From contig JADDOH010004202.1 in assembly GCA_016648135.1 (NCBI GenBank), forward strand, positions 175,537 through 239,536: a DNA stretch of 64,000 nt. The letters are read 5' to 3'. Source of the stretch: Agrypnia vestita (lineage: Eukaryota; Arthropoda; Insecta; Trichoptera; Phryganeidae). Shown one piece after another: positions 7,385 to 61,414 of this stretch. The notes beneath the pieces were generated by a model. The model did not search any database and was not told the DNA's origin. It worked only from the letters and a program-made list of their open reading frames with translations. Numbering within the stretch: position 1 is the first letter of the stretch; each line of letters begins with the position of its first letter. Made by a program: the position numbers and the translations under genes.

Positions 7385-8439
7385 TATGAATAATCTCTAT
7401 AAAGTAAACGTCAATTCATCTACAATGCAAAATATGATATTTTGTTTTAAAAGCACGTGCTTTTAAGTTATTTTTGTGATAAATGGGTTAAACAATTTGG
7501 ACTACCAATGTAATTACAGTGATGATAAAGATGAATAAATGATGATTGTGATTATGATGAGAAGATGACGATGATAGAGATTATGATAATGTGAAGTACC
7601 TAACGTTATGTAAATCACCTCGAATGTCTCGTCAGCTATAATAAGGTCGACAGTTTTTCCAAAATGGATACCAATTTTCAATATTAAGAGCGTTAAGAAA
7701 TATATGTTTTTGAAGTTTCTTTTAATGGTATATTTAATTATTTTTTATAAATAAATATCGTACATTGATTGATCATTAAAAATATTTGATTAATTTTACT
7801 TTTTTATCCGTACTTGAGATTTTAAGAAATTATTTTGTTTTTCATTACTAGTTTCGAGTAAATTAGAATTTCTCATCGACAGGTAAAGTACAAAACTAAC
7901 TACTTTTTAAATAAAGAATTTTGACAATAATGGTTAGGTACTGAAAAAATGATCTGAAGTTACTGATGTAAGGGTGGTTGTGGTTGTAACGGGAATATTG
8001 AGAGAAAAGAAGAAGAGTTATTAAAGGTAATGTTGTTAAGTAAATACACCCAAATTAAAAAAAATAATAATTTACAAACTTCAAAAATTATTTATTTTAT
8101 CACCCTTACGCACGAATAATAGAAACTAAAATAGAAACTGGTAGTGAACAAATAAAATAATTTCTTGTAAACTCAAGTAGAGACAACAAATATAAATATA
8201 ATGAAATATTTTTAATATTTTCTCATTATGATTATCTACAGTGTAAACATCAAATCCATCAAAAATTGAGTTTACACATATTGAGTTCTGTATTATTTAC
8301 TCAATATAGGAACAATAATACCTAAATAAGAAAAAAAGTATTTACAGGATGGTACTTTTACGTTTATTTGCGTAAAAGTATCGAATCAACGCAGACCTGA
8401 GGTGTTAAAATTCCCCCGTGTGAATTTTTATCATTAAAA
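7385..8439. other. AT-rich DNA, nothing recognised
   Basis: A low-complexity GAT-rich patch lies at about 7515-7590. Otherwise there is no supported feature. Confidence 0.5.
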
Positions 8440-31303: not shown

Positions 31304-31606
31304 TTACTGTTTCAATAAGTATAATTTATAATACTTACACTCTTCCATCACAGTCACATGTCGAGGTAGAACACCCTCTTCTTTATCTTTTTGTATTAGT
31401 TTCGCAATTCTGGTCCACCATGTCCAGCGGGAAATGTCCTCTTCTTTTTTTATTTCTGAGAAAGACAGCGTTTCATGGGCCACGTGTTCATCGTCTCTTC
31501 TAATCACATGTCCGAAGCACCTCAGGCGACTTTCTGAACAACGTCTATTCTGAACAACGTCTATTCGGAACAATGTCCGAACCATCTCAGGCGACTTTCT
31601 GAACAA
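31304..31606 (-). pseudogene. LINE C-terminal remnant merged with a minisatellite
   Basis: The minus strand reads ESRLRCFGHVIRRDDEHVA, then ETLSFSEIKKEEDISRWTW and TRIAKLIQKDKEE, matching the LRWFGHVxRRDxxHVxxKxL...RWxD block of LINE C-termini. Its N-terminal end (VQNRRCSESR) is itself the start of the tandem array at 31509-31850, so the array grew out of this coding sequence. Confidence 0.65.
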
Positions 31607-31850
31607 CGTCCATTCTGAACAACATCTATTCGGAACAATGTCCGAACCACCTCAGGCGACTTTCTGAACAACGTCTATTCTGAACAACATCTATTCGGAA
31701 CAATGTCCGAGCCACCTCAGGCGACTTTCTGAACAACGTCTATTCTGAACAACGTCTATTCTTAACAACGTCTATTCTGAACAACGTCTATTCGGAACAA
31801 TGTCCGAACCACCTCAGGCGACTTTCTTAACAACGACTTTCTGAACAACG
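31509..31850. repeat. LINE-derived minisatellite, 65-bp unit with nested 16-bp subunit
   Basis: The landmark TCCGA recurs at 31511, 31576, 31641, 31706 and 31803, spacing 65, 65, 65 and 97. The last gap is 65 plus two extra copies of a 16-bp subunit (GAACAACGTCTATTCT). Units differ by only a few bases, so amplification is recent relative to the surrounding decay. 65 is not a multiple of three, so the array is not coding. Confidence 0.92.
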
Positions 31851-32009
31851 TCTACTCTCAATTCTCTATTGCGATAACAAAAACAAGTAATTTTCTATTG
31901 TATTTTCTTTAATTATTTTATTTTATATTGACGCTATGAAAACGGTGATTATTTCTAGGACATAGATATAAGCAAACACACTAAAAAGAAAATTGCTTAA
32001 TATTGCACT

Positions 32010-58498: not shown

Positions 58499-59990
58499 TA
58501 TTTTCAATTACATCTTACAATATGACAGCCGACTGGGGGCGTAACTAAGATGCCACAGCACTCGCTTAGTATGTGAGAGCTACAAGGATAAATGCCCGGC
58601 GCCTTCAATATCGATTAAAAATGAAGGTGAAGAAAATCACACGAGGTAAAAAAGTTCCAACACAATTTTTTTAACTTTTAGTGGGTGAGTGCAAAAAAAT
58701 ATGTATTGTGATTAAAAATTTGGAAAACATATTTGATGGAATGTTGTCTGTCTGCGTATATTTTATGATATTATGCTTTCGGAGCTTGTGGTCCAGAGCA
58801 GTCCATGATTATTTTTTTCGTGAAGTTTTTTCTTAAACATTAATCTAGGCTTTTGTAATTGTAAGTACGCAGATCGAGAATAAAATCTTCAGAATTTTTA
58901 AAAGCAATGACACTTTATCTTATTTTAAATGTTCGTTTTATACCGTGTACTACATTAATTTATACATATAAGGAATTTCAGAATCTTATTAGTTTTCTCA
59001 ATAATAGGGTAAAATGTACCAAGTACGATTGGAAAGCCGATGTACCAAATGAAATACTTAATGTATTTAGTCATTTTAAGTAAAATAACATTTTTAATTT
59101 TTGTGTTTACATGCAATTTTTTGCCTTTTTTTAACGTTTTTAGACGCATCTGGCCAATGAGATATACCGATGCATACACAGCAATACTCGTGAACTACCA
59201 GCAATAGCTTAAGTAATCTGACTTTCTTTTCTATTTATTTATTTATACAGCAGAAACAGAACAATGATTTTTATAATTAATTAAACATATGTCATTACAT
59301 TTTAATTTTAAATTATAAACCCATTGTGTGATCCAATAGCTCGAGTTAATTTTTCCGACTTAGAGGCGATTTTTTCAACTTCTTATGTCTAATAACCAGG
59401 TGTCTCCCTAGAAAAAAGTATCACTCGATTGACTATACTATGTATAATTTGATTAATCATTGAAGCTTGTAATGGGAAAACTCGGCATTACTCCGTGCAT
59501 TTCAAGCGCAATCGTAATATAGATTCAATCCTAATTTATATTGTATTTTCTTTTATGTATGTATGTATTTTCCTTGAATTTTCTCCGCTGCCGAGGGTAA
59601 GGCTGAGAAACGAAGGCTTTCACAAAACGTAATTCTTCTGATATGCATGCGTCATCTCGCACCCCACATACACACATACACATGACAAGATAATTGCATA
59701 TATCAGAAAATAATTTGCATGCCTTTGTAAAAAAAAGTTAAACATATGTTCTCTTATACGCAGTTCAAAATTCAATGAGACTCAATATGTAATAAAGCAG
59801 TGTACAGGCAATATAACCAGGTTTGAGTCCCGTTAGTAAAGTATACGTTTTATAAGGATGGCATTCATATATAATCGTCGACAATATTTGTCACCAACAA
59901 ATTCAATGTACTTTAGCTTTGATTTCAAATCAAAGTCGAGGTCATGCAGTCTCACGTTCCAACCAATAACAGAACGACGGTTACTTATAT
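58499..59990. other. AT-rich DNA, nothing recognised
   Basis: Only scattered short frames. A complex patch at 59570-59690 is unassigned. Confidence 0.45.
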
Positions 59991-61143
59991 ACTAGCTGAT
60001 TGGCCCGGCTTCGCTCGGGACCATAATTTAGAAAGCATAGAATTGTGTTGACGTCTCTTTTTTGCTAGTTTCGGCATCTGTGATTGGAACCATCTTCGCT
60101 TTACCAAAACATCAATAGATATTTTAGCGCACAATCATAACACCCTAGAGAGAACCTTTCAAAACTTTCTAGAGCATTCCGAAATCTTATAGAACTTTCT
60201 GGAATATTCTAGAACTTTACCTTTCCAGAACCTTCTAGAGCATGATAATTATTTCTGGAACCTCTAGACCAACCGGCGTACTCCCCCACTCAGTTTGAAA
60301 TCTAATAGATCTTTCTGATAGCTTGTAGAACTTTCTCCTTCCTTTTTAAAGAATTCTCGAACCCTCTAGAACTTTCCGGAACCTTTTAAACTCACCGTCA
60401 TACTCCGCAATTCAGTTAGAACCTTATAGAACTTTCTGAAACTTTATCCATCCAGAACTTTCTAGAGCATTCTGGAACCTTATTTTAATCTTCTGGAACC
60501 TTCTAGAAACCGACTCACTCCGCCACTCAGTTTGGAACCTTTTAGAAAGTTTTTGAATTTTGTCTTTCCAGAACCTACAAAAGCATTCGAGAACCTTCAT
60601 GAACGTTATGAAACTTTCTAGACCCCCAGACACACTCCTCCTCACTGTTTGTAACGTTGGAAAACTTTCTTTTGAAGAATAAAGAATCTTCTAAAACGTT
60701 CTCTTTCCAGAATATTCTAGAACTTTTTCAAACCTTCTGGAACTTTCTGCAGTCACCGACACACTCCGCCACTTGGTTTCGAACCTTATAGAACATTCTA
60801 AAATCTTCTAGAACATTCTCCTTTCAGAATTTTCCGGAGCTTTATCTAACGTTCTAGAATCTTTTGGTCTCACTGACATACTCCGTACTCAATTTACAAC
60901 CTTATAGAACATTTGTGAATACTCTAGAACGTTGTCTTTCCAGAACTTTTTACAGCTTTATCGAATGTTCTGGACTCGCCGACACACTCCGCCACTCAGT
61001 TTGGAACCTTATAAAACCTTCTTGAACGATGTGACACCAAGGGCTATCTACCACCATAACCACCAGGGGGTGGTATCGTCTGGTTGTGGAGAAAACTTGG
61101 CGGATAGGGAAACACGGGTTTCTTTTTATATATATATATATAT
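59991..61143 (-). mobile_element. Helitron-like element carrying a heat-shock-element minisatellite
   Basis: Read on the minus strand, the 3' end is hairpin CCCGAGCGAAGCCGGG, CCAATCAG, CTAG and then host T, the Helitron pattern shared with family C. The other side ends in a (TA)n run near 61120-61143, with an ACCACCAGGGGGTGGT palindrome inside. Non-autonomous Helitron/Helentron derivatives often hold internal tandem repeats, as here. The 5' boundary is a guess. Confidence 0.55.
60145..61030. repeat. Minisatellite, ~118-bp unit, rich in nGAAn/nTTCn pentamers
   Basis: The landmark ACTCCGCCACTCAGTTT recurs at about 60280, 60402, 60517, 60634, 60763, 60880 and 60985 (spacing 105-129). Between landmarks, TTCTAGAA-type words repeat in a strict 5-bp register. 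Examples: five perfect alternating pentamers at 60191-60215, four at 60490-60509 (CTTCTGGAACCTTCTAGAAA) and four at 60704-60723 (TTTCCAGAATATTCTAGAAC). Contiguous inverted nGAAn units are the established binding site for heat-shock factor. Confidence 0.88.
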
Positions 61144-61414
61144 TGATTTAAGTAATGCGTATTATACACCAACTGTATTCAATGTATTCAAATTTCATCC
61201 TTATGCAGCGGTGATTCTACACTTTATTTTTTATAAGTGATTGATCCAATTCATTTTCTGTTGAATTAATATATTTTAAATGAAAATAAATTCGTTTAAC
61301 GTCTACGTTAAATAGATAAAAATGAACTGTAGATCTCTAATGCTTTTTTATCTTTTACATTTTAATTTATTTATATTGTGACGCACAGGCGGCTCTCAGT
61401 CCTCCTGATACGGC
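61144..61414. other. AT-rich DNA, nothing recognised
   Basis: No supported feature. Confidence 0.5.

Follow-up and report, generated by a model that had tools for sequence, protein, structure and literature searches.

Heat-shock factor (HSF) binds heat-shock elements (HSEs), which consist of contiguous inverted pentamers, and the HSF-1 domain of C. elegans binds tetra- and pentameric HSEs cooperatively (PMC9148306). The closest described parallel to the locus analysed here comes from the Helitrons of Caenorhabditis. According to the survey of Garrigues et al., 61.4% of the HSEs of C. elegans lie in Helitrons that cover 1.7% of the genome, and these Helitron HSEs become more heavily occupied by HSF-1 and Pol II when worms are heat-shocked, with up-regulation of nearby genes (Garrigues et al. 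2019, PMC6927752). Among the UCSC metazoan genomes with annotated Helitrons, enrichment of HSEs in Helitrons was limited in that survey to three Caenorhabditis species, which raised the possibility that HSE-rich Helitrons occur in this genus alone (Garrigues et al. 2019, PMC6927752). The caddisfly family described below has much in common with these elements as the survey presents them, namely Helitron hosts, dense HSE clusters, enrichment in one transposon type and overlapping tandem HSEs. It differs in its insect host, in its 117-bp minisatellite unit and in its copy number, which runs to thousands in a genome of 1.3 Gb, and it is known here from its sequence arrangement. Two other repeats invite comparison, although both are unlike the caddisfly family in structure: ONSEN is an LTR retrotransposon whose LTR contains few HSEs and which has no minisatellite, and human satellite III is pericentromeric, has sites of the GGAAT type and is not dispersed by Helitrons. 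The likeness lies, for ONSEN of plants, in a transposon tied to heat activation via heat-shock elements (PMC8376061) and, for satellite III, in repetitive DNA that HSF1 binds in nuclear stress bodies upon heat shock (PMC9032817).

We analysed a 64-kb stretch of DNA (the window), for which a preliminary description had proposed an HSE minisatellite inside a Helitron-like element at 59991-61143 and an arthropod host, the latter now narrowed to Trichoptera. A mitochondrial COI insert of the genome is 98% identical to a Trichoptera cluster (P0002, whose mnemonic EUBRE suggests Eubasilissa regina) and 99% identical to P0001, which carries the label Hexapoda, and caddisflies follow at 91%. The Helitron assignment stands, and both ends of the element were found (Table 1). 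The case is larger than was described, since the array belongs to the element itself, whose 5' end recurs thousands of times in the genome. The description had missed one of the ends, and this copy is shortened by ~1.3 kb relative to a longer copy, L042. On the plus strand the element reads CTAGCTGATTGGCCCGGCTTCGCTCGGG ... TATATTGA, preceded by A and followed by T, so that the minus strand starts with TC and finishes with a hairpin and CTAG. The minus-strand 5' end, TCAATATATA..., thus has the 5'-terminal TC of Helitrons. At the right end the window element finishes in ...TATTGA at 61146, before a T, and right ends in TTGA are common to copies at unrelated sites. The hairpin-CTAG-T 3' end proposed earlier was recovered on the minus strand, with the hairpin at 60004-60019 and CTAG ending at 59992. 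Helitrons characteristically end in CTRR preceded by a short hairpin, and here CTAG is present in 26 of the 32 copies analysed and altered in the others. The minus-strand fold of 59985-60045 (-6.8 kcal/mol, z -1.5) is only weakly better than that of shuffled sequence, 16 of 200 shuffles being equally good. The bases flanking the window copy are A59991 on the left and T61147 on the right. All 19 copies with both ends have A as their left flank, in keeping with the insertion of Helitrons between A and T without target-site duplication; this target-base count covers the 19 copies that passed our end-finding rule, and the right-flank T is not independent evidence because that rule demanded it.

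Table 1. Features of the Helitron copy and its HSE array (positions in the window)
Feature	Position	Strand	Basis or remark
Non-autonomous Helitron, subfamily A, internally deleted copy	59992..61146	minus	1155 bp; ends common to other genomic copies
3' terminal hairpin CCCGAGCGAAGCCGGG (minus-strand reading), then 8 nt, then CTAG at 59992-59995	60004..60019	minus	sequence
HSE minisatellite, about seven 117-bp units	60160..61028		run scan, analysis of 19 copies, unit comparison
Perfect five-pentamer HSE	60191..60215		run scan
Perfect three-pentamer HSE	60222..60236		run scan
Perfect three-pentamer HSE	60368..60382		run scan
Perfect four-pentamer HSE	60490..60509		run scan
Perfect four-pentamer HSE	60585..60604		run scan
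Perfect four-pentamer HSE	60704..60723		run scan
Perfect three-pentamer HSE	60734..60748		run scan
Perfect three-pentamer HSE	60805..60819		run scan
Internal deletion junction: L042 element positions ~1038 and ~2345 joined	61027..61028		alignment to L042
Helitron 5' region, TC terminus (minus strand) after (TA)n tract	61029..61146	minus	common to subfamily B

Further genomic copies, for which the preliminary description had proposed a search, proved plentiful. Forty loci were fetched and 32 copies analysed, 31 of them besides that of the window; L014, L017, L027, L036, L037, L038, L043 and L047 were dropped, being without a usable 5'-end match. The window copy is short for its family: among the other 18 copies with both ends, 17 measure 1.66-2.82 kb and one 3.19 kb. 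Positions 1-1038 of L042 (2454 bp) align with 59992-61028 and positions 2345-2447 with 61027-61129. The ~1.3 kb by which the window copy is shorter than L042 comprise about half of the array as well as some of the 5' region, and longer copies therefore hold roughly twice the array. Pairwise divergence averages 5.9% over the first kilobase (28 copies), and the amplification therefore looks fairly recent. At L020 and L041 two copies adjoin directly, 5' end to 3' end, as if one had inserted into the (TA)n end of the other, an arrangement that may reflect TA-rich targets.

An HSE was taken to be a run of at least three contiguous, alternating nGAAn/nTTCn pentamers in a strict 5-bp register. Eight perfect runs were found in 59991-61143, compared with an average of 0.057 (sd 0.24, maximum 2) in dinucleotide shuffles of the same sequence, none of 2000 of which reached eight, and the rest of the 64-kb window contained no perfect run of this length. 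The array is therefore real and far denser than chance allows; the preliminary description had also placed the five perfect pentamers (60191-60215) correctly. Its estimate of about seven ~118-bp units fits in number, the majority unit measuring 117 bp. The units of the window copy have diverged from one another, since Tandem Repeats Finder did not report the ~117-bp period in it. The majority unit contains runs of six, four and four pentamers and is more perfect than most of the units from which it was constructed, which suggests that the present units have decayed from a more perfect one.

Both the triplet and the spacing of the array were compared with alternatives. When alternating runs of three were counted for 320 combinations, each a triplet with its reverse complement at a step of 3-12 bases, GAA/TTC at 5 bp ranked first, with 787 runs in the 32 copies, the runner-up having 84. 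A different factor that reads TTC/GAA half-sites, for example STAT, could in principle be the one that binds, as it would have the TTC...GAA half-sites in common with HSF. Sites of the STAT type, however, need TTC to GAA offsets of 6-7 bases, and the window array has 19 such pairs at 5 bp, none at 6 and one at 7, so that the chance of this reading being correct is minute. Other TTC/GAA spacings and other triplets are ruled out by the offset counts and by the 320-combination control.

The number of runs per copy ranges from 7 to 34 across the 32 copies, with a median of 25 among those with both ends, and the window copy has the second-fewest of all. In the 19 both-end copies, 181-225 bases separate the 3' end from the start of the first run; between the last run and the 5' terminus there are 261-332 bp in 16 of them and 97-239 bp in the other three. 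Family sequence contains 969 runs in 89,443 bp (10.8 runs/kb) and the other sampled sequence 7 in 199,383 bp (0.035 runs/kb), a density ~300 times higher in the family, measured against a background that is not a random genome sample, its loci having been picked for carrying a copy or a mitochondrial insert. Strong enrichment of HSEs in Helitrons is also characteristic of the HSE-Helitrons of Caenorhabditis. The sample of 288,826 bp consists of the window, six NUMT loci (L049-L054) and the 39 loci L009-L047, of which L017 and L047 have 1.15 kb in common.

A genome-wide pattern count is free of this weakness in the background. In the 1,321,690,220 bases searched (19,947 contigs), the perfect five-pentamer pattern has 21,629 matches (10,820 forward and 10,809 reverse), where about 6 are expected from base composition and the same pattern read backwards, as a control, gives 4 (2 + 2). 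Since a six-pentamer run is counted once on each strand, these matches correspond to roughly 10,000 runs of at least five pentamers, provided that six-pentamer runs predominate, which the match pairs listed suggest. The shared 5' end of the family, allowing at most three mismatches, occurs at 8,369 places (4181 + 4188; control 0). Among the matches listed on contigs C1-C12, a perfect five-pentamer HSE lies within 3 kb of 13 of the 15 exact 5' ends when compared by hand, those without one being C3:290079 and C9:387763. Thousands of arrays might act jointly as decoys that titrate HSF and so modulate how strongly or when the heat-shock response unfolds, a role that roughly 10,000 runs would make conceivable. 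Chromatin may hide the arrays, however, and active HSF could equally saturate them, and we consider such a sponge improbable.

More than four-fifths of the 100 five-pentamer sites listed, judged by eye, belong to a short sibling Helitron, subfamily B, which has the same 5' region as subfamily A and a 3' end that differs from that of A but is similar to it. Five of its copies were fetched (L057, L058, L059, L060 and L061), and the one at L058:864-1370 is 507 bp long and has two units with runs of 6, 4, 6 and 3 pentamers. Because these copies were picked by the HSE pattern, their six-pentamer runs are biased evidence. The sibling also bears on the idea that the array serves replication of the transposon, for instance as binding sites for Rep/helicase or through single-stranded DNA structure, its likeness to HSEs being incidental. 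Short inverted repeats are indeed present, and minus-strand single-stranded DNA of 60160-60520 folds slightly better than shuffles (z -1.6; 5 of 100 equally good). This excess is weak, however, and subfamily B, abundant by the sites listed, carries no more than two units in those copies that were read; a long array is therefore not needed, and we regard a replicative function as highly improbable.

Selection on the HSE cores was assessed in two ways. Among 28 of the 32 copies, with CpG positions skipped, substitutions amount to 2.6% in HSE cores, 3.7% in linkers and 2.9% at other positions. Between units, in 13 of the 16 unit intervals (three outside 100-130 bp having been dropped), identity is 0.832 in cores, 0.756 in linkers and 0.855 in the non-HSE part; the core versus linker comparison gives p about 0.05 and is biased in that the cores were taken from the majority unit. 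There is accordingly no clear signal of selection on the cores among the 28 copies and a borderline difference between cores and linkers in the 13 units. These tests do not establish that the cores are maintained, and a passive repeat therefore remains a serious rival explanation: a palindromic word of ~10 bp (AGAACnTTCTn), expanded by slippage and rolling-circle replication, would equal an HSE by chance, and HSF occupancy, if any, would be without consequence. Cores that are not clearly better conserved than the rest, together with diverged array units, are what such a minisatellite would be expected to display, and some Helitrons of other animals do carry tandem repeats. Chance is a poorer account of why GAA/TTC at step 5 alone stands out of the 320 combinations, and of why the majority unit, with its runs of six, four and four, is more perfect than most of its source units. 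Subfamily B keeps runs of six pentamers, albeit in copies picked by that pattern, and the genome encodes an HSF domain predicted to be able to read such sites. Taking these points together, we find a purely passive minisatellite unlikely, while still regarding it as deserving weight.

The HSF DNA-binding domain in question, the best-scoring one (at C288), matches PDB 1hks, a solved heat-shock factor of Drosophila, with an E value of 9e-37, the stretch KHNNMASFIRQLNMYGFHK being identical. Two further HSF-like DNA-binding domains with equal scores are located at C9376:7113-7415 and C18556:112891-113193. The reading that we consider probable is that of a stress enhancer, in which the window element belongs to a strongly amplified family of non-autonomous caddisfly Helitrons, built around an HSE minisatellite to which HSF would bind. 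Binding by HSF, induction by heat and an influence on genes nearby are what we infer. Upon heat or proteotoxic stress, HSF trimers would bind the arrays cooperatively, and copies beside genes would add HSF-dependent induction, by analogy with the Helitron HSEs of C. elegans. On the same analogy, copies in open chromatin near genes would be the likeliest to act as stress enhancers, and most copies are probably neutral after insertion. The element itself might conceivably gain from stress-opened chromatin or from transcription.

Mobilisation is presumably carried out by Rep/helicase in trans. The Helitron Rep domain (Helitron_like_N) has 102 matches in the genome, some of them in open frames of up to 1605 aa. 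Many of these matches are near-equal in score and a number lie in long open frames, which suggests recent autonomous Helitron activity. In two 1.5-kb stretches upstream of Rep domains there were no HSE runs of at least three pentamers, and similarity to the HSE family was confined to chance-level matches of 15-19 bases, so that these stretches lend no support to heat-driven expression of the transposase.

A wider claim, which we advance tentatively and hold to be possible rather than probable, is that Helitrons have independently come to carry HSE arrays in a second animal phylum, where these would recruit HSF at thousands of sites, place species-specific genes under heat-shock control and possibly buffer HSF. 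Given the distance of the last HSE run from the 5' terminus with its (TA)n tract, a copy could even serve as a heat-inducible promoter that reads outward. The parallel with Caenorhabditis drawn in the preliminary description is a close one in sequence arrangement, and the family looks like an HSE-rich Helitron case in a second phylum because the survey of Garrigues et al. found enrichment in Caenorhabditis only among the metazoans it covered. Among the literature matches listed, which consisted of titles and the starts of abstracts from mostly open-access papers, we noticed no insect Helitrons bearing HSEs. Section 9 of the survey prints the cross-species HSE pattern as NGAANNTCCNNGGAN, unlike the GAA/TTC consensus (Garrigues et al. 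2019, PMC6927752). This printed pattern has no match in the 288,826 bp sampled here, which contain 976 GAA/TTC runs. A misprint is possible; if the pattern was used literally, the negative result of the survey outside Caenorhabditis would be weak. If an aquatic insect does provide a second case, Helitrons must be able to acquire this stress-response site repeatedly, and it becomes testable whether benefit to the transposon, rewiring of the host or recurring accident is responsible. Through this family, heat-responsive switches may have spread across the genome of a host belonging to a group used in freshwater monitoring, and the thousands of marked insertions provide a system for studying how a transposon burst changes thermal response.

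Near the window copy no genes were recognised in a Pfam scan of 10 of the 14 stop-to-stop frames of at least 110 aa. The sole Pfam match was to a reverse-transcriptase fragment at 1728-2063 of the window (RVT_1, E 0.0019, below the cut-off), which is Penelope-like by eye. The exact 28-bp 3' end of the element had no matches in viral contigs, in a search that possibly excluded records close to the source genome. Among loci L049-L056, mitochondrial inserts or assembly copies with COI are present on C1261, C18939, C19178, C18371, C14538 and C16352, some of them rearranged or with stretches missing. The window also contains a second minisatellite, at 31508-31858, which is built of 65-bp and 16-bp units with TTCTGAACAACGTCTA and has a TTC-GAA spacing one base short of that of an HSE; it overlaps a minus-strand frame (31304-31651) which, on visual inspection, looks like the end of a LINE reverse transcriptase.
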